A stretch of 54,300 nt of DNA, taken from positions 1 to 54,300 of the forward strand of contig NZ_JAGOMQ010000029.1 of the NCBI RefSeq assembly GCF_017993425.1. The letters run 5' to 3'. Shown here one piece after another: positions 569 to 38,436 of the stretch. Both the position numbers and the translations under genes were made by a program. Origin of the DNA: Amaricoccus sp. (lineage in GTDB: Bacteria > Pseudomonadota > Alphaproteobacteria > Rhodobacterales > Rhodobacteraceae). The notes under the pieces are model-generated. The model was given only the letters and a program-made list of their open reading frames with translations. It was not told where the DNA came from and made no database searches. Within the stretch, counting starts at the first letter, position 1. Every line of letters starts with the position of its first letter.

Positions 569-1536
569 CCGATCTCCGGCTCGGGGTCGCGGGCGGCGTC
601 GTCGGTCGCGGCGGGCTCGGCGAGGGGATGCTTCTCCAGCACCAGCTCCTTCAGGCGGGCGTCGAGGACGTGGGTGTAGATCTCGGTCGTGGCGATCGAG
701 GCGTGGCCGAGGAGGGTCTGGATCACCCGGAGGTCGGCGCCGTGGGCGAGGAGGTGCGTCGCGAAGGCGTGGCGCAGCGCGTGGGGCGAGACGGCGGCGG
801 GGGAGACGCCGGCCTCTACGGCGATGTTCTTGATCATGACGAAGAACCGCTCGCGCCCCAAGTGGCCCTTCTTGCCGCGGGCCGGGAAGAGGTAGGGCGA
901 GCGGGGGCGGCCCTCGCGGGCGCCCGTGTCGTCGGCGGCGTCGCGGGCGGCGAGCCAGGCGGCGAGCGCGCGGCGGGAGGGATCGGAGAGCGGGGCCATG
1001 CGCTCGCGGCCGCCCTTGCCGCGGATCAGGATCATCCGCGGGTCGCCGCGCACGGCGGCGGCGGGCAGCGCCACGAGCTCGCTGACGCGCAGCCCGGTGG
1101 CGTAGAGGAGCTGCATCAGGCAGGCGGAGCGTAGGCGCTCGGCCGGGGTCTTGCCGTGGCGCTCGGCGGCGTCGAGCAGGCGGTCGACCTCGGCTTCGGA
1201 GAGCGTGCCGGGGAGCGTGCGGGCCTTGCGAGGACCCTTGAGGAGGGCGCCGGGGTCGTCGGTGCGCCAGCCTTCGAGGAAGGCGAAGCGGTAGAACTGG
1301 CGGATCGCCGAGAGCCGCCGCGCCCGCGTCGCCTGCGCCATGCCGCGGTCGTCGAGCGCGACGAGGTAGGCCTCGACGTCGGCGCGCACCGCGCTCGCGA
1401 AGTCGCGGCCGCGCGGGCGGAGGAAGTCGGCGAAGTCGGTGAGGTCGCGGGAATAGGCGGCGAGGGTGTTCTGGGCGGCGTCGCGCTCGGCGCGGAGCGC
1501 CTCGAGGAAGCGGGGGGGCCAGGTCCGTTCGGGCAT
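565..1536 (-). CDS. xerD: Tyrosine recombinase XerD
   Basis: A 323-residue site-specific tyrosine recombinase. In the Xer system XerC and XerD resolve chromosome dimers at dif, coupled to FtsK at the septum. The N-terminal SAM-like core-binding domain covers roughly residues 8-95. The catalytic domain follows, with all expected residues visible: Arg150 (ATGLR), Lys174 (RGKGG), His252 and Arg255 (HALRH), His278 (LLGHAS) and the nucleophile Tyr287 (IYTHV). The ATG at 1536 overlaps the stop of the repeat ORF upstream as TGATG, so translation is probably coupled. XerC is the alternative name, but the position beside aroK matches xerD in relatives. Confidence 0.93.
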   Translation of the reverse strand: MPERTWPPRFLEALRAERDAAQNTLAAYSRDLTDFADFLRPRGRDFASAVRADVEAYLVALDDRGMAQATRARRLSAIRQFYRFAFLEGWRTDDPGALLKGPRKARTLPGTLSEAEVDRLLDAAERHGKTPAERLRSACLMQLLYATGLRVSELVALPAAAVRGDPRMILIRGKGGRERMAPLSDPSRRALAAWLAARDAADDTGAREGRPRSPYLFPARGKKGHLGRERFFVMIKNIAVEAGVSPAAVSPHALRHAFATHLLAHGADLRVIQTLLGHASIATTEIYTHVLDARLKELVLEKHPLAEPAATDDAARDPEPEIG

Positions 1537-1922
1537 CAGGATTCCCCCGGCCGGGTGATCGCGGGGCGGGTCCGGCCGGCGGCGCGCAGGGGGAGCGCGA
1601 TCGGGCGCGCGGGATCGACGGCGGCGCGGGGCGGCGGGGGCCAGGTCCATTCGGGCATCAGGGGCTCCCTCGGTGGCGGCAGGGCGTGAAGGGCGTCGCC
1701 GTGTCCGGCGGCGCGGGCGAGCGGCGCCGCGGCGAGGCTTGCGGGACCGGCGGCGGGGGCAGGATGCGGCGGCCGGGTCCGGGCGGGCATCAGGGGTTCC
1801 CTCGGTGGCGGCAGGGCGTGAAGGGCGTCGCCGTGTCCGGCGGCGCGGGCGAGCGGCGCCGCGGCGAGGCTCGCGGGACCGGCGGCGGGGGCAGGATGCG
1901 GCGGCCGGGTCCGGGCGGGCAT
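1536..1922 (-). CDS. Junction-repeat ORF, 128 aa, between the secreted protein and xerD
   Basis: One open frame of 128 residues made of three modules of 44, 44 and 40 residues. Each module starts MPARTRPP or MPEWTWPP, close to the xerD start MPERTWPP. The third module ends LRAAGRTRP...RPGES, close to the C-terminus of the gene upstream (LRAAGQTDS...LPGES). The ATG at 1922 overlaps the upstream stop as TGATG and the stop at 1536 overlaps xerD in the same way. The frame therefore looks like repeated duplication of the gene junction. Whether a protein is made is unknown; proline and alanine richness suggests disorder. It is not a recognised family. Confidence 0.5.
   Translation of the reverse strand: MPARTRPPHPAPAAGPASLAAAPLARAAGHGDALHALPPPREPLMPARTRPPHPAPAAGPASLAAAPLARAAGHGDALHALPPPREPLMPEWTWPPPPRAAVDPARPIALPLRAAGRTRPAITRPGES
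1537..1922. repeat. Tandem duplication of the xerD upstream junction
   Basis: Two 132-bp units, 1659-1790 and 1791-1922, differ at only two positions by eye. A third, more diverged unit of 122 bp fills 1537-1658. Unit boundaries coincide with start codons (minus strand ATGs at 1922, 1790, 1658 and 1536). All unit lengths except the last are multiples of three, which keeps one frame open through the array. Confidence 0.9.
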
Positions 1923-3487
1923 CAGGATTCCCCTGGCAGGAGCAGGGCCTGGAGGGCGATGGCGCGGGCGGAGTCGGTCTGGCCGGCGGCGCGCAGGGCG
2001 AAGAGGGCGGCGGTGAGGCTCGCCGGGTCGATGGCGGGGCCGGGGGCGGCGAGGGCGAGGGCCTCGACGATCGCGGTCCCGGCGGCGCCGTCGGCGACCT
2101 CGGCGGCGAGGCGGGTCTCGCGCTCGTCGGCGGGGGGCCGGTCGGCGAGCCCGGCGAGGGCCGCGGCGAGGCGGGGGTCGTCGGGGAGCGAGGGCGGGGG
2201 CGCGCCGACGCCGGCGATGGCGAGGAGCGCCGCGGTGCGCGGGTCGGGGGCGGGGCCGGCGACGCGGGCGGCGGCCCCGCTCTCGCCGCCGAGGAGGAGG
2301 ATCTCCACCACCTTGCCGCGGGCCGGTTCCGGCAGGCTGGCCGGGTCGAGCGCCGCGAGCGCCGGGGCGTAGGCCGTGGCGAGGGCCACGCGCAGGCCGC
2401 GGGCCGAGAGGGCCGCGTCGGCGGCGGCGAGGGCGTCGGCGATCTTCTCCGGCGCGCCGGCGGCGAGCGCGGCGTCGAGCGCCTGCGCGGCGGCGGCGCG
2501 GTCCCAGATGCCGCCCGAGGCCGCCGGGGCGCCGGAGCGGTAGGCGTCGAGGAGCGCGTCCGGGCCGGCCGAGCCGGCGAGGACCAGCCGCTCCGCCGCC
2601 TCGACCCGCATCCGCATCGGGGTGTGCTCGGTGAGGTCGGTCCAGAGGAAGGCGAGCGGCAGTTGCCCGGGCGGGCGCGACAGGCCGACCGCCTCGCGCA
2701 GCGTGAAGTCGAGGGCGGTCAGCGGGCGCGGGAGCGGCGGCTCGGGGTCTTCCTCGAAGAGCTGCGGGTCGAGGAAGCGGGCGAGCAGCGCCTCCTGCTC
2801 GGGCGAGATGGCGCCGACGCCCTGGCCGAGGGTCAGGGTGATCTCGGCGGCGTTCCAGTCGCCGCCGCGGGCGAGGCAGAACACCCGCGCAGGCAGCGTG
2901 GGCGAGAGGGCCGGGTTGAGGCGCAGCGCCTCGCATTGCGGCTGGGCGCGCTGGGTGAGGAGGCCGACGTCGAACCAGCGGCGGAAGAGCTCCGGCGTCT
3001 CGGGGCCGGCGGCGAGGATCAGCCCCTCGGCCTCGTCGAGGGCGCCGAGCTCCAGCAGGCGGTCGAGCCGGGTCAGCAGCACCTCGGAGCCGGGGCCGGC
3101 GCCGGCCGGCGGATCCGCCTCGGCGAGGAGGAGGCGGCGGAAGAGCGCGCGGGCCGCGGGCGGGCCGGCGTCGGGGTGCTCGATCAGGAGCGCGCGCACC
3201 TCGTCGGCGGTGGCGCCGCCCCAGAGCCGTCGCGGCAGGCCGCTGGCGTCGGGCTTGAGGAGGCCGACGGCGTCGCGGCTGACCGGGTCGAGCGGGGTGA
3301 CGGTGATGGCGCCGGCGCCCGGGCCGGCGGCGGGCTTGGGCCGCGGCGGCGGCAGGGCGGGGATGGAGAGCTCGACGCTGTCGGAGAGCCAGGGGATCGC
3401 GCTGCGGGGCTGCGCCGCCGCGGTCGTCGTCGCCGTCGCGAGGGCCAGCGCCGCGGCGAGCGCCGCCGGGCGCGTTCGCGGCCTCAT
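1922..3487 (-). CDS. Secreted or periplasmic alanine/leucine-rich protein, unknown function
   Basis: A 521-residue protein that I cannot assign to a named family. The first ~25 residues are a clear signal peptide (AALAAALALATATTTAAA followed by QPRS). The mature part has a proline-rich linker near residues 40-60, then long Ala/Leu/Glu helical stretches with no cysteine motif or membrane segment, compatible with a TPR-like or other helical-repeat fold. The ATG at 3487 overlaps the stop of the 42-aa membrane protein gene as ATGA, and the stop overlaps the next frame as TGATG. The three genes probably form one operon with xerD, and proximity suggests an envelope role. Confidence 0.75.
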   Translation of the reverse strand: MRPRTRPAALAAALALATATTTAAAQPRSAIPWLSDSVELSIPALPPPRPKPAAGPGAGAITVTPLDPVSRDAVGLLKPDASGLPRRLWGGATADEVRALLIEHPDAGPPAARALFRRLLLAEADPPAGAGPGSEVLLTRLDRLLELGALDEAEGLILAAGPETPELFRRWFDVGLLTQRAQPQCEALRLNPALSPTLPARVFCLARGGDWNAAEITLTLGQGVGAISPEQEALLARFLDPQLFEEDPEPPLPRPLTALDFTLREAVGLSRPPGQLPLAFLWTDLTEHTPMRMRVEAAERLVLAGSAGPDALLDAYRSGAPAASGGIWDRAAAAQALDAALAAGAPEKIADALAAADAALSARGLRVALATAYAPALAALDPASLPEPARGKVVEILLLGGESGAAARVAGPAPDPRTAALLAIAGVGAPPPSLPDDPRLAAALAGLADRPPADERETRLAAEVADGAAGTAIVEALALAAPGPAIDPASLTAALFALRAAGQTDSARAIALQALLLPGES

Positions 3488-3612
3488 CTTGCCGGGACCG
3501 GCAGCGAGATCTCGCGCGACGGGGCCGGCAGGTCGGACAGCAGCGCGAAGCCCGCGAAGCCGATCGCCGCGAGGACGACGAGCCACAGCAAGACCTTGAA
3601 CGCCAGCCGCAT
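3484..3612 (-). CDS. Small single-pass membrane protein, 42 aa
   Basis: A short frame beginning MRLAFKVLLWLVVLAAIGF. One hydrophobic helix (about residues 3-25) is followed by a short tail, SDLPAPSREISLPVPAR. Its stop overlaps the start of the secreted protein gene (ATGA), so the two are almost certainly co-translated, which is the main evidence that it is real. The lysine near the N-terminus could make this an uncleaved signal anchor with the tail in the periplasm. Function unknown. It opens the leftward operon that runs to xerD, divergent from aroK. Confidence 0.7.
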   Translation of the reverse strand: MRLAFKVLLWLVVLAAIGFAGFALLSDLPAPSREISLPVPAR

Positions 3613-3730
3613 GATAACCTGCTCTGCCCGCGCGGCTTGACCGCCGCGTCTCTACCTGCTCAATCGTCGGCGCTACGGCCGCGACCTTTGGCAGGAACCT
3701 TACCCCGGGCAGGGCCCCCCTACAATCGCC

Positions 3731-4345: not shown

Positions 4346-5490
4346 GCGGAGAGAGAGCCGAGGCGCCTGGCGCCGTGCCGGAGACCGTGCGCGTCGAGCT
4401 GGCGGACCGGAGCTATGACATCCTGATCGGCCGGGGCCTCGTCGGGGCGGCGGGGCGGTGGATCGCGCCGCTGCTGAAGCGGCAGCGGGTGGCGATCCTG
4501 ACGGAGGAGCGGGTCGCGGCGCTGCACCTGCCGGCGCTGGAGGCGGCGCTGGCGGCGGAGGGGATCGCGTCCGCCGCGCTGGCCTTGCCGCCGGGCGAGG
4601 CGACCAAGGGCTGGCGCGGGATCGAGGCGGCGGTGGAATGGCTGATCGCCGAGAAGGTGGAGCGCGACGATCTGGTCGTCGCCTTCGGGGGTGGGGTGAT
4701 CGGCGATCTCGCCGGGTTCGCGGCGGCGATCCTGCGGCGGGGGGTCGGGTTCGTGCAGATCCCGACGACGCTGCTCGCGCAGGTCGACAGCTCGGTGGGG
4801 GGGAAGACCGGGATCAACTCGCCGCGGGGGAAGAACCTGATCGGGGCCTTCCACCAGCCGCGGCTGGTGCTGGCGGATACGGGGCTCCTCGACACGCTGC
4901 CGCCCCGCGACTTCCTCGCCGGGTATGGCGAGGTGGTGAAGTGCGGGCTGCTCGGGGACGCGGCGTTCTTTCAGTGGCTGGAGCGGAACGGGCCGGCTTT
5001 GGCGGCGGGGGATCAGGCGGCGCGGATCCACGCCATCCGGCGGTCCTGCGAGATGAAGGCGGGCATCGTCGCGCGGGACGAGACGGAGCAGGGGGAGCGG
5101 GCGCTCCTGAACCTCGGGCACACCTTCGCCCATGCGCTGGAGGCGGCGACGGGGTATTCGGACCGGCTGCTGCACGGCGAGGCGGTGGCGATCGGCTGCG
5201 CGCTCGCCTTCGACGCCTCGGCGGCGCTGGGGCTCTGCCCGCAGGAGGCGCCGAGCCGGGTGGCCGCGCATCTCGCCGCGATGGGGATGCGGCGGAGCCT
5301 CGCCGAGATTCCGGGCGATCTGCCGGACGCGGACGGGCTGCTGGCGCTGATGGAGCAGGACAAGAAGGCGAAGGCGGGGCGGATCGCCTTCGTGCTCGCC
5401 CGCGACATCGGCGAGACCTATGTCGAGCGGGGCGCCGACTTGGCGGTGGTGCGCCGGGTGCTCGCGGACGGGCTATCGGGCCGGGCGTGA
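4342..5490 (+). CDS. aroB: 3-dehydroquinate synthase
   Basis: A 382-residue cytoplasmic enzyme of the shikimate pathway, converting DAHP to 3-dehydroquinate with NAD and a divalent metal. The NAD-binding GGGVIGDLAGF motif lies near residue 115. The substrate region has PTTLLAQVDSSVGGKTGIN and the metal ligands are a Glu in GYGEVVK, a His in LNLGHTFAHA and a His in LLHGEAVAIG. Length is normal for the family. It is translationally coupled to aroK by a four-base overlap. The final 180 bases are repeated, decayed, immediately downstream. Confidence 0.95.
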   Translation: MSGERAEAPGAVPETVRVELADRSYDILIGRGLVGAAGRWIAPLLKRQRVAILTEERVAALHLPALEAALAAEGIASAALALPPGEATKGWRGIEAAVEWLIAEKVERDDLVVAFGGGVIGDLAGFAAAILRRGVGFVQIPTTLLAQVDSSVGGKTGINSPRGKNLIGAFHQPRLVLADTGLLDTLPPRDFLAGYGEVVKCGLLGDAAFFQWLERNGPALAAGDQAARIHAIRRSCEMKAGIVARDETEQGERALLNLGHTFAHALEAATGYSDRLLHGEAVAIGCALAFDASAALGLCPQEAPSRVAAHLAAMGMRRSLAEIPGDLPDADGLLALMEQDKKAKAGRIAFVLARDIGETYVERGADLAVVRRVLADGLSGRA

Positions 5491-5502
5491 GGCCGGGAGC
5501 AG

Positions 5503-5662
5503 GGCGATCGGCCCGACGTGGACGGGCTGCTGGCGCTGATGGAGCAGGACAAGGGGGCGGATCGCCTTCGTGCTCGCCCATCGCGCGACCTGTGTCGAGC
5601 GGGGCGCCGACCTAGCGGTGGTGCGCCGGGTTCTCGCGGACGGGCTCGCGGCCCGGGCGTGA
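5503..5662 (+). pseudogene. Decayed duplicate of the aroB 3' end
   Basis: This stretch realigns with the last ~180 bases of aroB: GGACGGGCTGCTGGCGCTGA is identical, as is GCGGATCGCCTTCGTGCTCG, and both copies finish GGGCGTGAGGC. Small deletions (for example the run after GACAAG, and in the RDIGETY codons) break the reading frame, so it is a remnant. Its right part also encodes, on the other strand, the last ~17 codons of the EamA transporter. Confidence 0.85.
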
Positions 5663-6520
5663 GGCGAGCGCCACGCCGATGGCGGTGATGGCGACGCCGA
5701 CGCCCTTGGCGGCGTCGAGCGGCTCGCCGAGGAAGGCCCAGGCCCCGAGCGCGGCGAGGATCGGCACCACCGCGGCGAAGGTCGCCGTGCGCCCGGCCCC
5801 GAGGCGCTCGATCGCGTAGAAGAAGGTGTAGGTGGCGACGAAGCCGGAGAGCACGCCCTGGAGCAGGGTCTGGATGACCACGGTGCGCAGCGGCACGGCG
5901 GCGAAATGCGTGCCGAGGAGCGCGGCGAGGACGAGGAAGCCGGCCGCGGCCCAGAAGGCGAGCATCGCCGCGGCGGGGAGCGCGGCGAGGCGGGAGCGGC
6001 GAAAGGCGATGGTGTAGATCGCCCAGTTGAACGAGGCGCAGGCGAAGAGGACATGCCCGCGCCACGCCCCGGGCGCGCCCTCGGTCATCGCCGCCCAGCC
6101 GCCGACGGCGAGCGCGCCGGCGACGATCAGCGCGAGCCCCGCGGCGCGCAGGCCGCCGACGCGCTCGCCCAGCGCGAAGCGGGCGATCAGCGCCACCCAG
6201 AGCGGCAGCATTGCGGGCGCGAAGACGCCGGCGTCGGCGACCGGGGCGAAGCGCATCCCGCTCGCCAGCAGGAACACGAAGGCGACGCCGCCGCAGAGCG
6301 CGAACACCGTCGCGTCGCGCCAGGTCGCGCCGGCGGGAATCGGCCCGCGGCGGACGAGGACCGGGGCGAAGAGCAGCGCCGCGGGGGCGAAGCGCATCAG
6401 GCCGATCTCGACGGGCCCGAGCGCGGTGGCCACGGCGGCCCGCGTCGAGACGAGGAAGCTCGCCCAGATCAGCAGCGTCGCCGCCAGCGCGGCCCAGGCG
6501 AGGATGCGGTCGCGCGTCAT
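5612..6520 (-). CDS. EamA/DMT-family transporter
   Basis: A 302-residue inner-membrane protein of the drug/metabolite transporter superfamily, which usually exports amino acids, nucleotides or small metabolites. About ten hydrophobic helices are visible in two repeated halves; the second half carries the typical PILAALGAWAFLGEPLDAAKG motif of EamA domains. The start at 6520 gives MTRDRILAWAALAATLLIWAS, a normal first helix, so longer upstream starts were rejected. The last residues (GREPVRENPAHHR) come from the antisense strand of the aroB remnant, so the native C-terminus was probably replaced. The gene is convergent with aroB. The substrate cannot be predicted. Confidence 0.88.
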   Translation of the reverse strand: MTRDRILAWAALAATLLIWASFLVSTRAAVATALGPVEIGLMRFAPAALLFAPVLVRRGPIPAGATWRDATVFALCGGVAFVFLLASGMRFAPVADAGVFAPAMLPLWVALIARFALGERVGGLRAAGLALIVAGALAVGGWAAMTEGAPGAWRGHVLFACASFNWAIYTIAFRRSRLAALPAAAMLAFWAAAGFLVLAALLGTHFAAVPLRTVVIQTLLQGVLSGFVATYTFFYAIERLGAGRTATFAAVVPILAALGAWAFLGEPLDAAKGVGVAITAIGVALASRPGREPVRENPAHHR

Positions 6521-7490: not shown

Positions 7491-7536
7491 CCGGCCCTCC
7501 GGAGCACGTCACGACATAAGGGCCCCGGCGCCGCAC

Positions 7537-13340: not shown

Positions 13341-14006
13341 ATGTCCGTCTTGCTTGTCATCGTCCTGAGCGTTCTCGCGCTGCTCGTCGCCCGTCTGGTC
13401 GGCGCGCCGCGGCGGGCCTGGCGGTATGTGGCGGTCGCGGCGGCGCTGGCGCTCGGGGCCTCGCTGCTGGCGCCGCGGGGGGACCCGTATCGGGCCGAGG
13501 TGGCGGCATGGGCGCGGGCGGCGGTGTGGACCGGGGCGGGGCTGGCGCCGGTCGCGGCCTATGCGCTCTGGGTGCGGTCGCTGCGGCGGCAGAGCGGGGC
13601 GGCGGCCGTGGCCGAGGCGCCGCCGTCGCGACCGCGGGGACTGGTGCAGTTCGACGACGACGCGGCGCTGGCGGCAGAGACCGCGGCGGCGCTGGCGGCC
13701 GAGGCGCCGGGGGCGCGGGTGTCGCTCGGCTGGCGCGGGGCGGATGGCGGGCTGGAGGGCCACGTGCGGCTGCGCGTGGCGGGGGAGACGGCGGAGATCG
13801 AGATGCTGCGGGTCGAGCCGGCGGCGCGGGGGCGCGGGGTGGGCGGGGCGCTCTTGCGCGCCGCGGAGGGCGAGGCGACGGCGCGGGGGGCGCGGCGGAT
13901 CGGCGCGGCGGTGGGCGAGTGGCAGTCGCCGGGGATGTTCGCGCGGGCGGGATATGTACCTGTCGGCGGCCCGGCGGTGCGGCGCTGGCTGGAGAAGCCG
14001 CTGTGA
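13341..14006 (+). CDS. Membrane-anchored GNAT-family acetyltransferase
   Basis: A 221-residue protein. Up to three hydrophobic segments lie in the first ~80 residues (LLVIVLSVLALLVARLV, YVAVAAALALGASLLA and a third near 60-75), then a linker, then a GNAT domain from about residue 105. The acetyl-CoA pyrophosphate loop is visible as AARGRGVGGALL (about 160), and the C-terminal half has the typical MFARAGYVPVGG. Substrate unknown. Its TGA overlaps a GTG start (GTGA at 14003), and the end of the gene (RRWLEKPL) is repeated 98 bases downstream. It is co-directional with the ThiF-family gene. Confidence 0.8.
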   Translation: MSVLLVIVLSVLALLVARLVGAPRRAWRYVAVAAALALGASLLAPRGDPYRAEVAAWARAAVWTGAGLAPVAAYALWVRSLRRQSGAAAVAEAPPSRPRGLVQFDDDAALAAETAAALAAEAPGARVSLGWRGADGGLEGHVRLRVAGETAEIEMLRVEPAARGRGVGGALLRAAEGEATARGARRIGAAVGEWQSPGMFARAGYVPVGGPAVRRWLEKPL

Positions 14007-14104
14007 CGCTGTCGCCGGAGGAGATCGGGCGCTGCGGCCGGCATGTCGTGCTGCACGACGTGGGCAGGCTGGGCGCGCGGCGCTGGCTGGAGAAGCCGCT
14101 GTGA
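14003..14104 (+). CDS. Junction mini-ORF, 33 aa, between the GNAT and ThiF genes
   Basis: A frame of 33 residues that starts VTLSPEEIGRCGRHVVL, nearly the ThiF start (VTLSPEEIERYARHIVL), and ends ARRWLEKPL, the GNAT C-terminus. It opens with a GTG overlapping the GNAT stop (GTGA) and closes with a TGA overlapping the ThiF GTG in the same way. Its origin is clear: a 98-base tandem duplication across the gene junction. Whether it is translated as a product is unknown; it may simply carry ribosomes from one gene to the next. Confidence 0.5.
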   Translation: MTLSPEEIGRCGRHVVLHDVGRLGARRWLEKPL

Positions 14105-14871
14105 CGCTGTCGCCGGAGGAGATCGAGCGCTACGCGCGCCATATCGTGCTGCGCGAGGTGGGGGGCCCGGGCCAGCGGCGGCTCGGGGCGGCGCGGGTGC
14201 TGGTGGTCGGGGCGGGCGGCCTGGGCTGTCCGGCGCTGCTCTATCTCGCGGCCGCGGGGGTGGGGACGCTCGGGGTGATCGACGACGACGTGGTGAGCCT
14301 GTCGAACCTGCAGCGGCAGGTGCTGTTCTCGACCGCGGATGTGGGGCGGCCGAAGGTCCTGGTGGCGGCGGAGGCGTTGGGGCGGCTGAACCCGCATGTG
14401 ACGGTCGAGGCGATGGAGGGGCGGCTGGAGGCGGCGGGGGCGGCGGCGCTGGTGGCGGGCTGGGATCTGGCGCTCGACGGCAGCGACAACTTCGCCACGC
14501 GCCATGCGGTCAATGCGGCCTGCGTGGCGGCGGGGCGGCCGCTGCTTGCCGCGGCGATGAGCCAGTGGGAGGGGCAGATCGCGCTCTGGGATCCGGCGCG
14601 GGGGGGGCCGTGCTATGCCTGCGTGTTTCCCGAGGCGCCGGCGGCGGGGCTGGCGCCGGCCTGCGCGGAGGCGGGGATCGTCGGGGCGCTGCCCGGGGTG
14701 ATGGGGTCGATGCTGGCGCTCGAGGCGATCAAGCTGCTCGCCGGCGCGGGGGAGGGGCTGCGGGGGCGGCTGGCGATCTTCGACGGGCTCCATGGCGAGA
14801 GCCGCCGGCTGGGGACGCGGGCGCGGGAGGATTGTGCGGTGTGCGGGGGGCGGGGGGCGATCTCCGGCTGA
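14101..14871 (+). CDS. ThiF/MoeB/HesA-family adenylyltransferase
   Basis: A 256-residue E1-like enzyme that adenylates the C-terminal glycine of a ubiquitin-like sulfur carrier such as MoaD or ThiS. The ATP-binding VVGAGGLGCPAL lies near residue 37, the DDDVVSLSNLQRQ strand-loop near 61-73, and DGSDNFATR near 124. Two Cys pairs, CYAC and CAVC (about residues 173-176 and 244-247), form the structural zinc site. No rhodanese domain is attached, which favours MoeB/HesA. The start is the GTG at 14101 that overlaps the mini-ORF stop. A gene-free 226-base spacer follows with nothing recognisable. Confidence 0.9.
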   Translation: MTLSPEEIERYARHIVLREVGGPGQRRLGAARVLVVGAGGLGCPALLYLAAAGVGTLGVIDDDVVSLSNLQRQVLFSTADVGRPKVLVAAEALGRLNPHVTVEAMEGRLEAAGAAALVAGWDLALDGSDNFATRHAVNAACVAAGRPLLAAAMSQWEGQIALWDPARGGPCYACVFPEAPAAGLAPACAEAGIVGALPGVMGSMLALEAIKLLAGAGEGLRGRLAIFDGLHGESRRLGTRAREDCAVCGGRGAISG

Positions 14872-26207: not shown

Positions 26208-28652
26208 TCAGGCGCGGATACGGGCGCCCTCGGGGTCCCAGAGCGGGCGCAGGAAGGCCTCGGCGGGGAAGCGCTCGGTCGCGACCTCGAGCTCGTAGGA
26301 GCCGGAGAGGACGTAGCCGGGGTCGACGCCGGCCTCCGGGTCGCGGACGTAGCCGTAGCCGATCGGGCGGCCGACCGTGTGGCCGAAGCCGCCGCTGGAC
26401 AGCCAGCCGACGCGCTTGCCGTCGCGGTAGATCGTCTCGCGGCCGAGGAGCGTCACCGACGGGTCGGCGAGGGTGAAGCCGGCGAGGAGGCGGGGCAGGC
26501 GACCGTCGCGCTGCGCCTCCAGCGCCTCGCGGCCGAGGAAGGGCAGGTTCTTGCGGAGCTTCACCGCGAAGCCGAGGCCGGCCATCAGCGGCGAGTGGTC
26601 GGGGCCGATGTCGGCGCCCCAGGCGCGGTAGCCCTTCTCCAGCCGCAGCGACTCGATGGCGCGGTAGCCGGCGTCGCGCAGGCCGTGGGGCGCGCCGGCC
26701 GCCATCAGGGCGTCGTAGACGGTGGCGGCGAACTCGACGGGGACGTGCAGCTCCCAGCCGAGCTCGCCCACGTAGGTGATGCGCAGCGCCAGCGCCGGCG
26801 CGCCGGCGACCGAGAGGCGGCGGCAGGTCCCGAAGGGGAAGGCGGCGTTCGAGACGTCCTCCTCGGCGAGCGGCGCGAGGATGTCGCGCGCCCGGGGGCC
26901 CATCAGCGACAGGACGGCGTTCTGCGAGGTGGCGTCGTGCAGCCGCACGTCGAGGCCGGGCGGGATGTTGCGGCGGAGCCAGTCGAGGTCGTGGGTGGCG
27001 AAGCCGGTGCCGGTGACGACGTAGAAGGTCTCCTCGTCGAGGCGGGCCACGGTCAGGTCGCACTCGATGCCGCCGCGGGCGTTGAGCATCTGGGTGTAGG
27101 TGAGGGTTCCCGGCGGGCGGATGACGTCGCCCGCGCAGATCCAGGAGAGCGCCGCCTCGGCGTGGCGGCCGGTGACGAGGGTCTTGGCGAACGAGGTCTG
27201 GTCGAAGATCACCGCCGCCTCGCGGCAGGCGCGGTGCTCGCGCGCCACGGCGTCGAACCAGTTGGGGCGGTCGAAGGTCGGGACATCCACCGGCGGCTCG
27301 CCGTCGGCGGCGAACCAGTTCGGGCGCTCCCAGCCGAGCTTCTCGCCGAAGACGGCGCCCTTCGCCGCCAGGCGGTCGTAGAGCGGCGAGCGGCGGGCGG
27401 GGCGGGCGGAGGCGTATTCCTCGTGCGGCCAGGCCATGGCGTAGTGGCGCGCGTAGGCCTCGAGCGTGCGCTCGCGCACCGCGCGCGTCGAGAGGGTGTT
27501 GCGGCCGAAGCGGCGGATGTCGACGGGCCAGAGGTCGTAGGGCGGCGCGCCGTTGGCGACCCATTCGGCCAGCGCCATGCCGGCGCCGCCGCCCGAGGCG
27601 ATGCCGAAGGCGTTGAAGCCCGCGCCGACATAGAGGCCCGTCACCTCCGGGGCCGGGCCGAGGATGAAGTTGCCGTCGGGGGTGAAGCTTTCGGGGCCGT
27701 TGATGAAGGACTTGATGCCCGCCGTCTCCAGCGCCGGCACCCGGCCGAGGGCGAGGGCCATGGTCGGCTCGAAATGCTCGAGGTCGTTCGGCAGGAGCTG
27801 GAAGGCGAAGTCGTCGGGCACGCCCGCCTCGGCCCAGGGCTTGGGGTTCGGCTCGTAGCCGCCCATGGTCAGGCCGCCGACCTCCTCCTTCCAGTAGGTG
27901 AGCCGGTCGGGGTCGCGGAGCGTCGGCAGGCCCGGGGTGACGCCGGGGATCGGCTCGGTGATCAGGTACTGGTGCTGCACGCTGACGAGCGGCACGTTGA
28001 CGCCGACGCGGGCGGCCAGCGCGCGGGTCCACTGGCCGCAGCAGAGGACCAGCTTCTCGCAGGCGATCGGGCCGGCGCCGGTCAGCACGCCGCGGACCCG
28101 GCCCTTCTCGACGCGGATGCCGGTCACGGCGACGCCCTCGCGGATCGTCGCGCCGCCCATGCGGGCGCCGCGGGCGAGGGCCTGGACGATGTCGGAGGGC
28201 GAGGCCTGGCCGTCGGTCGGCAGGAAGGCCGCGCCGATGACGTCGTCGATATTCATCAGCGGCCAGAGCTCCAGCGCCTCGCGCGGGGTGAGGAGCTGCA
28301 TCTCGAGCCCGAAGGAGCGGGCGGTCGTCGCCTGCCGGCGCACCTCGGTCCAGCGCTCCGGCGTGCAGGCGAGGCGCAGGCCGCCGTTCATCTTCCAGCC
28401 GGTGGCGAGGCCGGTCTCCGCCTCCAGCCGGTCGTAGAGCGCGACCGAATAGCCGAGGAGCTGGGTGACGTTGGCGTTGGAGCGGAGCTGGCCGACGAGG
28501 CCGGCGGCGTGCCAGCTCGACCCGGAGGAGAGCTGGTGGCGCTCGAGGAGCAGCGTCTCCTGGCCCATGGCGGCGAGGTGGTAGGCGGTCGAGGCCCCGA
28601 CGATGCCGCCGCCCACCACGATGGTCTTCGCTGACGAGGGCAGGTCTGTCAT
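26208..28652 (-). CDS. FAD-dependent oxidoreductase with GcvT domain (dimethylglycine/sarcosine dehydrogenase-like)
   Basis: An 814-residue two-domain enzyme. The N-terminal DAO-type FAD domain (about 1-390) has VVGGGIVGASTAYHL and SSGSSWHAAGLVG; in dimethylglycine dehydrogenase the His of this second motif binds FAD covalently. The C-terminal half (about 430-800) is a GcvT-like aminomethyl-transferase domain that passes the released one-carbon unit to tetrahydrofolate (SLMGPRARDIL, YVGELGWELHVP, GYRAIESLRLEKGYRAWG). It likely demethylates an N-methylated amine imported by the ABC system. The ATG overlaps the kinase stop (ATGA). Confidence 0.9.
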   Translation of the reverse strand: MTDLPSSAKTIVVGGGIVGASTAYHLAAMGQETLLLERHQLSSGSSWHAAGLVGQLRSNANVTQLLGYSVALYDRLEAETGLATGWKMNGGLRLACTPERWTEVRRQATTARSFGLEMQLLTPREALELWPLMNIDDVIGAAFLPTDGQASPSDIVQALARGARMGGATIREGVAVTGIRVEKGRVRGVLTGAGPIACEKLVLCCGQWTRALAARVGVNVPLVSVQHQYLITEPIPGVTPGLPTLRDPDRLTYWKEEVGGLTMGGYEPNPKPWAEAGVPDDFAFQLLPNDLEHFEPTMALALGRVPALETAGIKSFINGPESFTPDGNFILGPAPEVTGLYVGAGFNAFGIASGGGAGMALAEWVANGAPPYDLWPVDIRRFGRNTLSTRAVRERTLEAYARHYAMAWPHEEYASARPARRSPLYDRLAAKGAVFGEKLGWERPNWFAADGEPPVDVPTFDRPNWFDAVAREHRACREAAVIFDQTSFAKTLVTGRHAEAALSWICAGDVIRPPGTLTYTQMLNARGGIECDLTVARLDEETFYVVTGTGFATHDLDWLRRNIPPGLDVRLHDATSQNAVLSLMGPRARDILAPLAEEDVSNAAFPFGTCRRLSVAGAPALALRITYVGELGWELHVPVEFAATVYDALMAAGAPHGLRDAGYRAIESLRLEKGYRAWGADIGPDHSPLMAGLGFAVKLRKNLPFLGREALEAQRDGRLPRLLAGFTLADPSVTLLGRETIYRDGKRVGWLSSGGFGHTVGRPIGYGYVRDPEAGVDPGYVLSGSYELEVATERFPAEAFLRPLWDPEGARIRA

Positions 28653-29542
28653 GATCCGTGGCTCTCCCGGAAGGCCGCCAGCGCCGCCTCGTAGCGGGCG
28701 AGGTTCTCGGCCGTGTAGGCGGCGTAGTCGAAGTCGATGGTCGAGCGGGCCTCCGAGACCATGCTCCACATCGTCTCGCGCAGGAGCGAGGCGGCGGTCA
28801 TCGCGTCGAGGGCGCGGGCGAGGCCGGGGTCGGCGGCGTGGCCGAGATAGGCGTCGAGGAGGAGGGCGCGCTCGCCCGCGTCCATGCCGGCGTTGGAGGC
28901 GAGGCCGCCGAGGTCGAAGAGGGGCGAGTTGAAGCCCGCGTATTCCCAGTCGATCAGCCAGAGCCGGTCGCCGTCGTCGATGATGTTGGCGGGCAGGAGG
29001 TCGTTGTGGCCGAAGACGATGCGGACGGGGCCGACCGCCTCCTCCAGCGCGGCGGCCTCGGCGGTCAGGCGGGCGAGGCGGGGGGCGTGGGGGCTCGCCG
29101 TCTCGGCGAGGGTGGCGGCGTAGTCGCGGATCACCTGGAAGACCCAGAAGATCGGCGCGGGGCCGCGGAACCAGCGGGGGACGTCGTGGTGGGTGCGTCG
29201 GAGCAGGTCGGCGAGGCGCGGGCGGTTCGCCGGGGCGCGGACGGCGGCGGCGTCGAGGGGGCGGCCGTCGATCCAGTCGACGACGAGGACGCCGGGCCCG
29301 GCGTGGCGGACGGCGGGCCCGACCCCGGCGGCGTGGGCGGCGCGGGCGGCGGCGAGCTCGGCGCTGCGCGAGATGCCGTGCGCGGGGATGTCCTCGCCGA
29401 TGCGCACGACATAGCGGCGGCCGGCGTCGGCGACGGTGAAGTTGAGGTTGGTGATGCCGCCTTCCAGCGGCTCGGCCGTGACGGGGCCGGACCAGATCGG
29501 GAGGGTCTCGGCCTTGCGGAGGGCGGCTTCGGCGGGGGTCAT
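28649..29542 (-). CDS. Choline/ethanolamine-kinase-like phosphotransferase
   Basis: A 297-residue kinase of the APH/choline-kinase superfamily. GGITNLNFTV with its glycine-rich loop lies near residue 28. VFGHNDLLPANI (about 180) and LIDWEYAG (about 200) are the catalytic Asp loop and metal-binding Asp. It probably phosphorylates a small amino alcohol such as choline or a methylated ethanolamine. Its stop overlaps the FAD-GcvT start, a strong sign of a joint pathway. The start ATGACCCCC at 29542 overlaps the stop of the 122-codon junction frame upstream. Confidence 0.87.
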   Translation of the reverse strand: MTPAEAALRKAETLPIWSGPVTAEPLEGGITNLNFTVADAGRRYVVRIGEDIPAHGISRSAELAAARAAHAAGVGPAVRHAGPGVLVVDWIDGRPLDAAAVRAPANRPRLADLLRRTHHDVPRWFRGPAPIFWVFQVIRDYAATLAETASPHAPRLARLTAEAAALEEAVGPVRIVFGHNDLLPANIIDDGDRLWLIDWEYAGFNSPLFDLGGLASNAGMDAGERALLLDAYLGHAADPGLARALDAMTAASLLRETMWSMVSEARSTIDFDYAAYTAENLARYEAALAAFRESHGS

Positions 29543-29907
29543 GGCGCGAGGCCTGGTAGGCGGGCGGGCGCGCGCGCGGAGGGGCGGCGCGGGACGGTCG
29601 TGCTGACGTCGGCGGGGCGCGTCGTTCTCCTGCTGCCGTTCGGGCGCGACGGCGCCGCATTCACTTCGCGGATTTGTCCGTCGACAAATCCGCGCGCGCC
29701 TGCCTGCCCGTCACGCCACAGGCGTGCCTTCGGCACGACGGCAGGCGCGATTCCGCGCCAGCCCAGGCAGGCGCGCGCGGATTGGAGAGCGACGGTGAGG
29801 CCCGGCGCCCCTCGCCCCTCCGCGCCAACGCGCTCCGGGTCGACGCCCTGCGCGAGGCAGTGCCTCGCTTTTGCAGGGCGAAGGAAGGGACCACCCCGGC
29901 CGGTCAT
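29539..29907 (-). CDS. Junction ORF, 122 aa, directly before the kinase gene
   Basis: A frame of 122 residues starting MTGRGG and ending RLPGLAP, where the ending copies the ProW C-terminus (RLGLAP). It opens by ATGA overlap with the 28-codon frame upstream and closes by ATGA overlap with the kinase. The middle is arginine-rich and coincides with hairpins of a repeat element (29667-29894), so the protein sequence is unlikely to be under selection. The frame may serve only to keep translation moving between proW and the kinase. Confidence 0.4.
   Translation of the reverse strand: MTGRGGPFLRPAKARHCLAQGVDPERVGAEGRGAPGLTVALQSARACLGWRGIAPAVVPKARLWRDGQAGARGFVDGQIREVNAAPSRPNGSRRTTRPADVSTTVPRRPSARAPARLPGLAP
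29667..29894. repeat. Hairpin-rich element related to family A
   Basis: Begins with a perfect 12-bp stem CGCGGATTTGTC/GACAAATCCGCG with a 4-base loop (29667-29694), which resembles the ACGGATTTG/CAAATCCGT stem of family A. It contains CGTGCC-TTC-GGCACG, the phrase TCCGCGCCAACGCGCTCCG shared with A1-A3, and a stem CCCTGC...GCAGGG around GAGGCAGTGCCTC. Clear terminal repeats are not visible. It appears inserted in the duplicated proW/kinase junction. Confidence 0.6.
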
Positions 29908-29990
29908 GGCGCGAGGCCCGGCAGCTGGCGGCGGCGCTGCGCGCGCCCTCCGGCGCGAGGCGGTCGAAGGAGGGGACCGGCCGGCGTCAT
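29904..29990 (-). CDS. Junction mini-ORF, 28 aa, directly after proW
   Basis: Starts MTPAGP (compare kinase MTPAEA) and ends LPGLAP (compare ProW LGLAP). Its ATG overlaps the proW stop (ATGA at 29987-29990) and its stop overlaps the next frame in the same way (29904-29907). The 15-mer TCATGGCGCGAGGCC (plus strand) marks all three junctions, at 29539, 29904 and 29987. Product function, if any, unknown. Confidence 0.45.
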   Translation of the reverse strand: MTPAGPLLRPPRAGGRAQRRRQLPGLAP

Positions 29991-31972
29991 GGCGCGAGGC
30001 CCAGCCGGCGGCGGAGGCGCTCCGCGCCCTGGGTCAGCATCCGGTCCGCGATCATGGCCAGCATGGCGATGCAGGCGCCGGCGACGAGGCCGCGGCCGAC
30101 GTCGGCCTTGGTCAGCGCGATGTAGACCTCCTGCCCGAGGTCGCGGGTGCCGACGAGCGCGGTGATGACGAGCATGGAGACCGCGAGGAGCACGGTCTGG
30201 TTGAGGCCGAGCAGGATCTCCGGCGCGGCGAGCGGCAGGCGGACGCGCGCGACCCGCTGCCAGCGGGTGGCGCCCATGGCGGTCGCGGCCTCGACCAGCG
30301 CCGGGTTGACCTCGCGGACGCCGAGGGCGGCGTAGCGGATCGCCGGGGCGATGGCGTAGAGGACGATGGCGATCAGCGCGGTGAACTCGCCGACGCGGAA
30401 GAGCATCACCACCGGGATCAGGTAGACGAAGGAGGGGAGCGTCTGGAGGGTGTCGATCGCGGGCTGGACCCAGGCCCAGAGCCGGGGCGACAGGCCGGAG
30501 GCGACGCCGACGGGGACGCCGATCGCGGCGGCGATCAGCACGGAGACGCCGACGAGGTAGATCGAGACCATCGCCGGCTCCCAGTAGCCGGTGAAGGCGA
30601 CGAAGAGCGCGAACCCGGCCGCGATGGCGGCGCGGCGGGGCCCGCCGATCCGCCACATGGCGAGCGCGACGACGAAGGTCCCCCACCACCACGGCACGGC
30701 GAGCAGCACGCGGCGGACGGGGACGAGGAGGTTGGTGAGGACGGCGGTCTTGATCGCCTCGAAGGTGTCGAAGAAGTTGACGTTCAGCCACCCGATCGCC
30801 CCGGCCCAGAAGGCGGAGGTCGAGACCTGCCATTCGGACGGGTAGACCGCGATCGCGGGGACGGCGAAGCCGAGGCCCCAGGCGGCGAGGGCGACGGCGA
30901 GGGCGGCGAGGGGGAGGCGCGAGCGCGGCAGGCCGCGGCCGGCGCGCACGGCGTAGGCCTGGCTCAGCCGGTCGAGCGCCACGGCGAGGACGACGATGGC
31001 GACGCCCGCCTCCAGCCCCGCGCCGATGTCGAGCCGGCGGAGCGCGGTCAGCACGTCGTAGCCGAGCCCGCCCGCGCCGATCATCGAGGCGATGATGACC
31101 ATGTTGAGCGACAGCATGATCACCTGGTTGACGCCGACCATCAGCGGCGCCCGCGCCGAGGGCAGCATCACCCGCCAGATGAGCTGGCGCGGCGTCGTGC
31201 CGGCCATGCGGCCGTATTCCACGATCTCCGGCGGCACGCCGCGGAGCGCGAGGAGCGTGATGCGGACCATCGGCGGCATGGCGTAGATCACGGTGGCGAT
31301 CAGCGCGGCGGCCGGGCCGAAGCCGAAGAGGACGAGGATCGGCAGCAGGTAGGCGAAGACCGGCACCGTCTGCATCGCGTCGAGGAACGGCGACAGCGCC
31401 GCCTCGAAGCGGCGGCTGCGATAGGCGGCGATGCCGAGGAGGAGGCCGCCGGCGACGCCGAGCGGCACGGCGATGGCGATCGAGGCGAGGGTGACCATGG
31501 CGCTCCGCCACTGGCCGAAGACGGCGAGGTAGCCGAAGGCGAGCGCCATCAGCGCGGCGAGCCGCCAGCCGCCGGCGTGGAGGCCGAGGATCGCGGCGGC
31601 GCCGACGATCCCGAGCCAGGGGAGGGGCGGCAGCAGGCGGCGCGCGGCCGAGCCCTCGCCGTCCATCAGCCCGGTGGCGAGGAGCGAGGAGGCGGCGCGC
31701 AGCGGGGCCTCGAGCAGCGCCGCCACGCCCCGGGTCAGGTCGCGGAAGGCGAGCGGCCCGAGGCGGGCGTCGTCGACGAGCCAGGCGGTGGCCGCGGAGA
31801 TCCAGCGCGCCACGGGGACCTGCATCGACCGCGGCACCTCCTCCCAGAGGCCGTCGAGCGCGCCGCGCGGCAGGTGCGAGAAGGCGATGGTCGCCGCGAG
31901 GACGGCGAGCCAGACGAGCGCCCAGGGGAGGCGCGCCCGCGGGGCAGGGGGGGCGAGGGCCAGCGCGGTCAT
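29987..31972 (-). CDS. proW: Glycine betaine/proline-type ABC permease, fused double unit
   Basis: A 661-residue inner-membrane protein with two complete permease domains in tandem, so one polypeptide replaces the usual homodimer. Each half contains an EAA-type coupling loop facing ProV: EYGRMAGTTPRQLIWRVMLP (about 262) and EAATAMGATRWQRVARVRLP (about 575). About 14-16 hydrophobic helices are visible. The ATG at 31972 overlaps the proV stop. This double permease is typical of betaine/choline importers of marine Rhodobacterales. The 3' junction with the downstream kinase is duplicated. Confidence 0.92.
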   Translation of the reverse strand: MTALALAPPAPRARLPWALVWLAVLAATIAFSHLPRGALDGLWEEVPRSMQVPVARWISAATAWLVDDARLGPLAFRDLTRGVAALLEAPLRAASSLLATGLMDGEGSAARRLLPPLPWLGIVGAAAILGLHAGGWRLAALMALAFGYLAVFGQWRSAMVTLASIAIAVPLGVAGGLLLGIAAYRSRRFEAALSPFLDAMQTVPVFAYLLPILVLFGFGPAAALIATVIYAMPPMVRITLLALRGVPPEIVEYGRMAGTTPRQLIWRVMLPSARAPLMVGVNQVIMLSLNMVIIASMIGAGGLGYDVLTALRRLDIGAGLEAGVAIVVLAVALDRLSQAYAVRAGRGLPRSRLPLAALAVALAAWGLGFAVPAIAVYPSEWQVSTSAFWAGAIGWLNVNFFDTFEAIKTAVLTNLLVPVRRVLLAVPWWWGTFVVALAMWRIGGPRRAAIAAGFALFVAFTGYWEPAMVSIYLVGVSVLIAAAIGVPVGVASGLSPRLWAWVQPAIDTLQTLPSFVYLIPVVMLFRVGEFTALIAIVLYAIAPAIRYAALGVREVNPALVEAATAMGATRWQRVARVRLPLAAPEILLGLNQTVLLAVSMLVITALVGTRDLGQEVYIALTKADVGRGLVAGACIAMLAMIADRMLTQGAERLRRRLGLAP

Positions 31973-32997
31973 GCGCGCCCCTCCGGCGTGCGGCCGAGCA
32001 GGATCGCCATCACCTCGGCGCGGCCGACGGAGCCGATGCGCGTTCCGTTCTCCACCACGGCGAAGGGGGCGCCGGCGGCCTCGACCTCGGCGGCGAAGTC
32101 GGCCACCCGGCGGCTCGCCTCGATCGCGCCGGCCACCGGGCCGTCGCCGCCGGGGCGCATGATGGCGTGGGCGGAGAGGATCTTCGCGCGGGGCGCGTCG
32201 CGGGTGAAGTCGGCGACGTAAGGGTCGGCCGGGGCGAGGATGAGGTCCTCGGCCGTGCCGGTCTGGATGATCCGCCCGTCGCGCATGATCGCGATGCGGT
32301 CGGCGAGGCGGATCGCCTCGTCGAAGTCGTGGGTGATGAAGACGATGGTCTTGCGCAGGTGCGACTGGAGACGGAGGAACTCGTTCTGCATCTCGCGGCG
32401 GATCAGCGGGTCGAGCGCCGAGAACGGCTCGTCGAGGAACCAGAGCTCGGGGCCGACGGCGAGCGAGCGCGCGATCCCCACCCGCTGCTGCTGGCCGCCG
32501 GAGAGCTCGCGCGGGAGGCGCGCCTCGCGGCCCTCGAGCCCGACGAGGGCGATCATCTCGCGGGCGCGCGCCTCGCGCTCGGCCCGCGCCACGCCCTGCA
32601 CCGCCAGCGGGAAGGCGACGTTCGCGAGCACGCTCAGGTGCGGCAGCAGGGCGAAGTGCTGGAAGACCATGCCCATCCGGTGCCGGCGCAGCTCGATCAG
32701 CTCGCGCTCCGAGGCGGCGCGCAGGTCGCGGCCCTCGAAGCGGATCTCGCCGGCGGAGGGCTCGACCAGCCGCGACAGGCAGCGAACCAGCGTCGACTTG
32801 CCCGAGCCGGAGAGGCCCATGATGACGAAGCACTCGCCCTCGGCGACCGCGAGGGAGGCGTCGATGACGGCCGGGGTCAGCCCGGCGGCGGCGACCGCCT
32901 CGCGGGTCGGGGCGGGATTCCGGGCGAGGAAGCCCTCCGCGCCGGGGCCGAACAGCTTCCAGACCCCGCGGCAGACGAGCTTCTCCGCCGCCGCCAT
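31969..32997 (-). CDS. proV: Glycine betaine/proline-type ABC ATPase
   Basis: A 342-residue ATPase of the OTCN family. Walker A GLSGSGKST (about residue 61), Q-loop in VFQHFALLPHLSV, signature LSGGQQQR (about 165), Walker B LWFLDEPFSALD (about 186) and switch His in VFITHDFDEA are intact. The N-terminal extension with RGVWKLFG typical of ProV is present. The C-terminal ~70 residues hold only one CBS-like unit, so the osmosensing tail is shortened compared with E. coli ProV. It powers uptake through the fused ProW. Confidence 0.93.
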   Translation of the reverse strand: MAAAEKLVCRGVWKLFGPGAEGFLARNPAPTREAVAAAGLTPAVIDASLAVAEGECFVIMGLSGSGKSTLVRCLSRLVEPSAGEIRFEGRDLRAASERELIELRRHRMGMVFQHFALLPHLSVLANVAFPLAVQGVARAEREARAREMIALVGLEGREARLPRELSGGQQQRVGIARSLAVGPELWFLDEPFSALDPLIRREMQNEFLRLQSHLRKTIVFITHDFDEAIRLADRIAIMRDGRIIQTGTAEDLILAPADPYVADFTRDAPRAKILSAHAIMRPGGDGPVAGAIEASRRVADFAAEVEAAGAPFAVVENGTRIGSVGRAEVMAILLGRTPEGRA

Positions 32998-34077: not shown

Positions 34078-34149
34078 CGGGTCGGTCTCCCCTGTTTCCC
34101 GCCGCCATGGTCGAGCCAGAATCAACGGCAGGTCAACAGAAATCCACAA

Positions 34150-34177: not shown

Positions 34178-34205
34178 CAGTCTTTGACCGGGGACTGGAG
34201 ACGCG

Positions 34206-34964: not shown

Positions 34965-34968
34965 GCGG

Positions 34969-35066: not shown

Positions 35067-35067
35067 T

Positions 35068-36234: not shown

Positions 36235-36433
36235 CTCGCCCTCCCTCGCGCCGGGCCCTTGGCCGCTTGTGGCCGCCCGGGCGCCGTCATGGGGTCGAGA
36301 CTGGCTCCTTGCGGGCCAGAGTCAAGCGGTGACCGGCGCGCCCGGAGCCCGGGCCTCGCAGGCGTGTTCACGCGTGAATATTCGATAAGCCGTTGATTTC
36401 ACTGGATTGGTTAATGTGAGCTAAATGGCTGGC
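36235..36433. promoter_or_regulatory. Upstream region of the M20 gene with palindrome TTCACGCGTGAA
   Basis: No gene. Positions 36367-36378 are a perfect 12-bp palindrome in an AT-rich stretch (ATATTCGATAAGCCGTTGAT), 133 bases before the gene start; a candidate operator. The region ends at the left 9-bp direct repeat of element A2 (36425-36433). Confidence 0.4.
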
Positions 36434-36759
36434 CACACTACACGACAGGAGCCGGTTGCCGCCCGAGGCTGCGGGCGCTCGCCCCGACCGAAGCGAGCTC
36501 TGCCCGCGAGGCTGCGGCGCGACAAGCGAAAGCACGGCTTTCGCCGCGCCGCCGGCCGGAGCGCATTGGCGCGGAGGCCGTGGGGGGGCCAGATTTTCCA
36601 CGCACCGCGCAATCCGGCCGTGATCGCCCCGGCGAGCGCGGAATCGCGCTCGCCCCCCGCAGGGGCGAGCGCGGACGGATTTGCCACGGGTCAAATCCGT
36701 CTGGCTTCACCGTCCCGCACCCTCCCGACCGATATTTCTCTCCACTGTCGTGTAGTGTG
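36434..36759 (-). mobile_element. Family A element, copy A2: MITE with 15-bp TIRs and 9-bp target duplication
   Basis: A 326-base non-coding insertion. The ends CACACTACACGACAG (36434-36448) and CTGTCGTGTAGTGTG (36745-36759) are perfect inverted repeats. ATGGCTGGC flanks both sides (36425-36433 and 36760-36768), as expected for a 9-bp target-site duplication. Read on the minus strand, its internal hairpins match A1 and A3 in order. It encodes no transposase, so it would have to be mobilised in trans. It is the best-preserved and probably youngest copy. Confidence 0.88.
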
Positions 36760-36793
36760 ATGGCTGGCGTGCGGCGGCACGCTCAACACGACG

Positions 36794-36892
36794 GAGGCGG
36801 CAAGGGTCGACCGGCGGCGCGGAGCGGCCTGGGCAGGGAGCGTGCAAGCTCGACGTGAGTTGAACGACGCCGCGAAATGCAGCGCCGATGAG
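36794..36892 (-). repeat. Family B intergenic repeat, inverted partial copy B4
   Basis: The reverse complement matches the left part of copy B1: CGGCGCTGCATTTCGCGGCG, then CGTCGAGCTTGC, then CCGCTCCGCG and GGTCGACCCTTGCCGCC. The central GACATGCGCATGTC palindrome is missing, so this copy has an internal deletion. It lies between A2 and the hemN 3' end. Confidence 0.65.
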
Positions 36893-36950
36893 TGTGCAAT
36901 TGTCCCCGGCCCGCATCCGATCGGGCTCGCCGGGCTGGCGGCCGTGCGGG

Positions 36951-38306: not shown

Positions 38307-38341
38307 GCGGGCTTCGTGCCCCGTGGGGGCGGGGCCGTCCT

Positions 38342-38436
38342 TGCGCGGGATCAAGCTGCGGGCACGAGGAGGGCGGCGCGGTCGGGACGGCCGCCGGCGG
38401 GGCGGGGCCGTGCTTGCGCGGGGTCAAGCCGGACTC
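38342..38436 (-). pseudogene. Duplicated gph 3' end joined to a copy of the hemN leader
   Basis: On the minus strand this region encodes AGGRPDRA joined to ALLVPAA and a stop. That is the gph C-terminal sequence (AGGRPDRAVLVG...DRLVPAA) with a large internal deletion; 24 bases around GTCGGGACGGCCGCC are identical to gph (38372 and 38934). The hemN leader TTGATCCCGCGCAAGGACGG also occurs a second time, as TTGACCCCGCGCAAGCACGG from 38427. The spacing between leader copies is 73 bases, so unlike other junction duplications the frame is broken. Confidence 0.75.

Follow-up and report, generated by a model that had tools for sequence, protein, structure and literature searches.

When extra DNA enters the junction of two codirectional genes that overlap by a stop and a start codon, is the link between them lost? 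This question is raised by a 54,300-nucleotide stretch of the genome of an Amaricoccus sp. (assembly GCF_017993425.1, contig NZ_JAGOMQ010000029.1, positions 1 to 54,300; the window), in which three gene pairs are separated by short open reading frames (ORFs) that lead from the stop codon of the upstream gene (A) to the start codon of the downstream gene (B). We refer to such an ORF or chain of ORFs as a bridge and to its members in the window as relay ORFs. The stop-to-start frame was found to be kept above chance in a larger sample of its genome (G000, a 4.24 Mb draft in which the window is contig 23). We consider it probable from the sequence comparisons that ordinary duplication and insertion stretched the gaps and that purifying selection kept those frames which preserve translational coupling.

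Junctions of the window and of its closest relative

The features concerned are listed by coordinates and strand; G003 denotes the closest relative seen.

1922..3487, minus strand: gene upstream of junction 1, about 520 amino acids, called by codon usage
1536..1922, minus strand: relay ORF 1, 128 codons, not present in G003
565..1536, minus strand: XerC/XerD-type tyrosine recombinase, downstream gene of junction 1 (Pfam Phage_integrase, 1.5e-40)
13341..14006, plus strand: GNAT acetyltransferase, upstream gene of junction 2 (Pfam Acetyltransf_1, 1.7e-09)
14003..14104, plus strand: relay ORF 2, 33 codons, GTGA at both ends, not present in G003
14101..14871, plus strand: ThiF/MoeB-like protein, downstream gene of junction 2 (Pfam ThiF, 2.7e-75)
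29987..31972, minus strand: ABC transporter permease as called, upstream gene of junction 3 (Pfam BPD_transp_1 on the longer ORF 29987-32833)
29904..29990, minus strand: relay ORF 3a, 28 codons, ATGA at both ends
29539..29907, minus strand: relay ORF 3b, 122 codons, ATGA at both ends, not present in G003
28649..29542, minus strand: choline kinase/APH-like phosphotransferase, downstream gene of junction 3 (Pfam Choline_kinase, 1.5e-23)
5502..5665, plus strand: decayed tandem copy of the aroB 3' end between convergent genes, not present in G003
38342..38436, minus strand: weak, mosaic copy of 3' pieces of a HAD-hydrolase gene, upstream of a radical-SAM gene

A stop/start overlap of 4 or 1 nt is present at each relay step of junctions 1 to 3. 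Relay ORF 1 opens on the TGATG of the upstream gene, for which a Pfam search of 1922-3484 matched no family, and its stop falls on the xerD TGATG at 1536. The start is repeated at 1922, 1790 and 1658 before the xerD-like gene, with steps of 132, 132 and 122 nt; no plasmid match to this relay was found. Relay ORF 2 originated from a 98-nt tandem duplication with copies 87% identical and GTGA at every step. The copies (13979-14082 and 14077-14180) share a 6-nt overlap, but a brief look at the breakpoints did not establish microhomology. At junction 3, where ATGA links relay ORFs 3a and 3b to each other, the clear repeat is limited to about 15 nt of the upstream gene's end, GGCCTCGCGCCATGA. The match of the bridge end to the A end ranked 0/37 and that of the bridge start to the B start 35/37; the remainder is other DNA, including a 22-nt match to a dispersed repeat. 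The original prediction had described extra frames that begin like the downstream gene, end like the upstream gene and keep the overlaps. All five places were read base by base, and the frames and overlaps were confirmed at all three junctions, but junction 3 clearly repeats the upstream gene end only.

Decayed copies of gene 3' ends had been claimed at two further places. The aroB copy is clear (5502-5665 against 5313-5493, 85% over 181 columns), while 38342-38436 proved weak and mosaic, with 41 nt at 90% to 38924-38964 and 54-nt matches at 76% and 70%. At the edge of the latter, at 38341-38354 upstream of the radical-SAM (HemN-like) gene, stands TTGATCCCGCGCAA, which resembles an FNR-type site; by reading, a similar box stands at the same place in three other genomes (G004, G005 and G008). 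An Rfam search of the window at gathering thresholds yielded no match.

G003 matched the window with 90% in aroB, 91-92% in XerD, 87% in ThiF and 82-83% in choline kinase. Its xerD junction is a plain TGATG, its GNAT/ThiF junction a plain GTGA and its permease/kinase junction a plain ATGA, and its aroB runs directly into the convergent gene without a copy; in the window the genes of junctions 1, 2 and 3 are now 385, 94 and 444 nt apart. Because G003 lacks the insert at these four places, the extra DNA arose in the window's lineage, i.e. the inserts are derived. For the fifth place (38342-38436) no comparison was possible, since two G003 contigs each hold part of the gene. A tandem duplication absent from this sister genome was found at junctions 1 and 2 and at the aroB copy, and in part at junction 3. 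The same conserved small genes in all relatives, which the original prediction had named as an outcome at odds with it, were not found at the places compared.

Recurrence of local duplications

The frequency of such duplications was determined in 1,254 kb of G000 (30% of the genome) and in stretches of relatives. The G000 sample is not random because its contigs were picked via matches to a dispersed repeat; the relatives' stretches were contigs named by gene matches and, for G003, also contigs taken by number. As a further comparison we used aroB loci of Rhodobacterales, of which 57/80 had a usable gene model; among these 80 loci, retained from GTDB, Amaricoccus solimangrovi matched the window aroB best, with 79%. 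Genes were called by a codon-usage finder and local direct repeats were sought within 800 bp at a threshold of at least 50 bits, matches spanning runs of N being skipped.

G000 contained 22 local duplications that touch gene ends. One of these (C92:153189) is a repeat gene beside a run of N and not a valid junction, leaving 21. None was detected in 334 kb of G003 or in 400 kb of four other relatives, and one in 614 kb of the 57 Rhodobacterales loci, so that 22 of 23 fell in G000 (p = 1e-6). The 38365-38964 repeat was classed as mixed and not counted, and G003 also has one mixed match. In the block-shuffled first sample no local repeat reached 50 bits. Thus the duplications recur across the sampled genome, and the recurrent process postulated originally was borne out (22 in 1,254 kb versus 1 in 1.35 Mb of relatives). 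An assembly artefact is unlikely because the copies in the 21 valid duplications differ by 6-29%.

Similar duplications occur at convergent gene ends (5313-5665, C92:187466 and C4:158649), and a further seven in G000 lie entirely between genes. The duplication process is therefore not special to overlaps. This generality is also what pure neutral drift would lead one to expect. In that explanation junction-spanning tandem duplication is the main kind of change that spares both genes, and the bridges are due to chance in GC-rich DNA.

Stop-to-start frames at stretched junctions

Adjacent codirectional pairs common to G000 and 485 kb of G003 numbered 81, of which 29 overlap in G003. Nine of the 29 were called stretched in G000; three, all unbridged, reflected differing start calls and were set aside, which left six truly stretched pairs: junctions 1-3, C92:170472 (through a miniature inverted-repeat transposable element, MITE), C12:134075 (with a -13 overlap kept) and C70:29245. 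Overlapping pairs were not stretched more often than non-overlapping ones (6/26 versus 16/52; Fisher p = 0.60, a small sample), and at least four of the 16 may be start-call differences. Yet the two groups differed in what became of the frame. Under the strict rule, a -4 or -1 overlap at each step, 5/6 stretched overlaps were bridged versus 1/16 stretched non-overlapping pairs (p = 0.001); under the less demanding loose rule the figures were 6/6 and 4/16 (p = 0.003). The strict result speaks against neutral drift, with which the four loosely bridged non-overlapping pairs agree. Taken together with the derived inserts and the recurrence of the duplications, the more frequent bridging of stretched overlaps supports the earlier proposal that duplication is tolerated as long as coupling is kept.

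The alternative mechanism proposed originally, an insertion that targets stop/start overlaps, was not supported, since overlaps are not stretched preferentially and duplications also occur at convergent ends. A specific form of it is a mobile element, like the mycobacterial interspersed repetitive units (MIRUs), which inserts at DTGA overlaps and carries its own coupled ORF. MIRUs do something similar in mycobacteria (PMC12548453), and by reading a near-minimal duplication of the overlap is found at C92:170472 (ATGA, with the MITE) and at C70:29245 (TGA). On the other hand, none of the 22 junction duplications recurs elsewhere in the 1.25 Mb sample; two more, which belong to dispersed repeats, were set apart. 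The MITE lies within bridges in both orientations; many of the gaps that hold it lack a start on the A stop, and 23 are convergent. Together with the lack of preference for overlaps these data render a mobile element of this kind highly improbable.

Of the 22 duplications 16 are codirectional and entered this test; the six left out were three convergent ones and, in addition, C92:153189, C67:81049 and C70:60543. Bridges were present in 13/16 under the loose and in 10/16 under the strict rule, and in the three unbridged cases the region -14 to +12 around the upstream stop lacks a start codon. Of the 16, 11 do carry a start on the A stop; ten of these are strictly bridged and the eleventh keeps a -13 overlap. 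Simulated tandem duplication over real overlaps gave a strict bridge at a rate of 0.35-0.45 and a loose one at 0.42-0.51, simulated random inserts a strict bridge at 0.16-0.28. Hence about 0.4 of new duplications would be bridged without any selection, as neutral drift requires, but 10/11 exceeds a rate of 0.40 (p = 7e-4).

The excess extends to gaps in general. Codirectional gaps of 40-700 nt were strictly bridged in 38/376 cases in G000 versus 1/108 in the first G003 sample (p = 9e-4); the counts were 4/21 in G009, 1/26 in G006, 0/23 in G007, 0/22 in G013 and 3/142 in the Rhodobacterales set. Among gaps whose A stop overlaps a start and whose B start overlaps a stop, 32/59 were bridged by a single ORF with 10.5 expected. 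Pooled relatives showed 9/32 for the same type of gap, with 3.7 expected (p = 0.006), so the bridging tendency is not confined to G000. With the known duplications excluded and gaps of at least 100 nt, 16/31 eligible gaps were bridged, with 3.8 expected from the shuffle null (p = 3e-8). There were 36 in-frame and 23 out-of-frame cases, against an expected in-frame share of one third (p = 1.2e-5). Frames that begin at the A stop remained open across 34/82 codirectional versus 6/40 convergent gaps (p = 0.004); shuffles predicted 33.2 and 13.4, respectively. Of 168 codirectional gaps whose A stop carries no start, 50 were open, with 71.4 expected. Real DNA is thus less open than shuffles where no bridge is expected, and the shuffle null is conservative. 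Given these excesses over chance, we regard neutral drift as unlikely, though random GC-rich gaps are often open.

Additional orthologous junctions were chosen because they were already bridged or duplicated, and serve as illustrations, not as a test. Their gene names (ltnD, otnK, otnC, otnI, deoA, deoB, add, mlaE, tadB, tadC, alpha-E/transglutaminase) are those of families which we presume from reading the sequence. Five junctions that by reading are clean ATGA overlaps in G003 are all bridged in G000: ltnD-otnK (361 nt apart, 122-codon bridge), otnC-otnI (400 nt, 135-codon bridge), deoB-add (251 nt, a chain of three ORFs), the pair before mlaE (123 nt, a chain of two) and C92:90944 (288 nt, a chain of two). 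The tadB-tadC and alpha-E/transglutaminase pairs are 3 nt apart in G003, and G000 bridges them only with near-adjacent starts. The otnK-otnC gap measures 61 nt in G003, where its bridge has 22 codons, and 573 nt in G000, where the bridge runs through a MITE. The deoA-deoB pair overlaps by 1 nt in 7/9 other genomes; it is 217 nt apart with a 73-codon bridge in G003 and 358 nt apart with a 120-codon bridge in G000. A separate observation is that six strictly bridged junctions seem to cluster within about 10 kb (C92:88545-98892), where not every intervening junction is stretched.

Several points weigh against selection for coupling. The ortholog set is small and 3/6 cases are the window's own junctions; without these the strict comparison is 2/3 versus 1/16 (p = 0.05) and the loose one 3/3 versus 4/16 (p = 0.04). 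The start calls came from our own gene finder. The excess of 34/82 over 50/168 open frames is weak (p = 0.09), and the 34 open codirectional frames are no more than the shuffle expectation of 33.2. Because NTGA at stops and ATGA at starts occur frequently, and GC-rich gaps are often open, an individual case is weak evidence. Strict bridges were present in 5/34 codirectional gaps bearing the MITE, or in 5/15 if a start on the A stop is required. Some bridges beyond the duplicated junctions, e.g. C4:21441 with its positive codon score, may be real unannotated small genes, and downstream genes might have promoters or ribosome-binding sites of their own.

The MITE-like dispersed repeat of about 325 bp lies in the window at 36420-36800 and, by reading, at about 120-430. 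It has 49 matches in the G000 genome, one weak match in G003 and 23 weaker ones in G006. Its 66 places in the G000 sample comprise 38 codirectional, 23 convergent and 2 divergent gaps, 1 intragenic site and 2 edges. The 29/34 codirectional MITE-bearing gaps that are not strictly bridged would fit if they had not been overlaps before. For this one MITE no match was found in junctions 1 and 2; the 22-nt match of junction 3 belongs to it, and it is present at C92:170472 and a few others. The repeat also occurs in tandem (C59:29351, C4:65098 and C92:179134), and the 820-nt codirectional gap C55:62272-63093, which holds MITE copies, is open as one strict bridging frame. A second, partly AT-rich dispersed repeat lies at about 38560-38740 of the window; by reading, the same text occurs at C4:50318 and C12:14682, whose repeat units occur at 31 and 34 further sites of the sample. 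At the window's end (54110-54289) a 54-bp tandem repeat lies within a called gene.

Nature of the bridges and comparison with known systems

A further explanation is that the mini-ORFs encode functional small proteins which arose at the junctions. The mini-ORFs are open and fixed, and 4/38 bridges scored above 0.1 per codon. Yet 25/38 scored below -0.1, and none of seven bridges tested matched Pfam. Codon differences between the two C92:90944 copies comprise 9 nonsynonymous and 0 synonymous ones, and G003 lacks the mini-ORFs at the clean junctions compared. The longest single frame among the 38 listed bridges has 227 codons, and some bridges pass through the MITE. The bridges thus mostly look like filler and not like proteins, and a protein function as their general explanation appears very doubtful. 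The deoA-deoB bridge (L166:9456-9818, L332) has a similar peptide-like stretch, RIS..LESSRF..CAHLRAP.GGKGRL, in G000 and G003; because it is common to both genomes, the insert may be an older element that serves its own purpose.

We therefore return to duplication and insertion followed by selection for coupling. Gaps between genes would have grown in this lineage by ordinary mutation, i.e. short tandem duplications of junctions, MITE insertions and other DNA. At former stop-to-start overlaps mainly those changes would have been kept that leave both genes whole and an open frame from stop to start. A ribosome that finishes gene A would reinitiate at the overlapping start codon and translate the filler frame; on terminating at the start of gene B it would reinitiate once more. 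Selection would remove cases in which the downstream gene loses its ribosome supply. Published work found coupling abolished or strongly reduced by gaps of about 20-38 nt (PMC10666635); thus an unbridged insert of the size of the relays should uncouple the genes. Translation of the relays, and selection for coupling as the cause, are our inference. With somewhat less assurance we favor the view that relay ORFs form a general selected class, in which a coupled overlap tolerates almost any DNA that reads from stop to start.

It has long been asked whether stop/start overlaps persist because they couple genes or simply because they save space. In this lineage overlapping genes were pulled apart several times, and the traced stretched overlaps keep the frame link, which suggests that the passing of ribosomes between these genes was worth preserving. 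This is evolutionary evidence for coupling and names junctions at which it can be tested. The relay reading would also account for a class of small ORFs that look like junk and that annotation would discard or mistake for genes. If it is true, genomes with active gap growth record which junctions depend on coupling and what distance a relay can span.

In the open-licence full-text literature we found no other description of bridging or relay ORFs made by local duplication. A precedent for inserts with a coupled ORF does exist, which corrects the original remark that no described name was known for this. According to a 2025 review, MIRUs are apparently mobile repeats that insert at start codons, have an inner ORF coupled at -4 and likely have minimal effect on the genes (PMC12548453), an example lying between senX3 and regX3 (PMC4213456). 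Junctions 1-3 and others resemble them in having repeated DNA between operon genes with a short inner ORF coupled to its neighbours by overlaps. Unlike in MIRUs, each duplicated unit of G000 copies its own local junction and differs from place to place, or else the MITE is involved; the duplicated junctions share no mobile unit, and overlaps were not preferred (6/26 versus 16/52 in the small sample). The ATGA, GTGA and TGATG overlaps between codirectional genes are those of pairs coupled by termination-reinitiation (PMC6728339, PMC10666635), but the G000 genes no longer overlap and filler ORFs would relay over 94-444 nt in the window and more elsewhere. Finally, the relays recall the delivery of ribosomes by upstream ORFs and bicistronic designs, in which a short ORF brings the ribosome to the next gene (PMC12548453). 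In contrast to these, a relay would arise between two genes after an insertion and restore their ancestral link.

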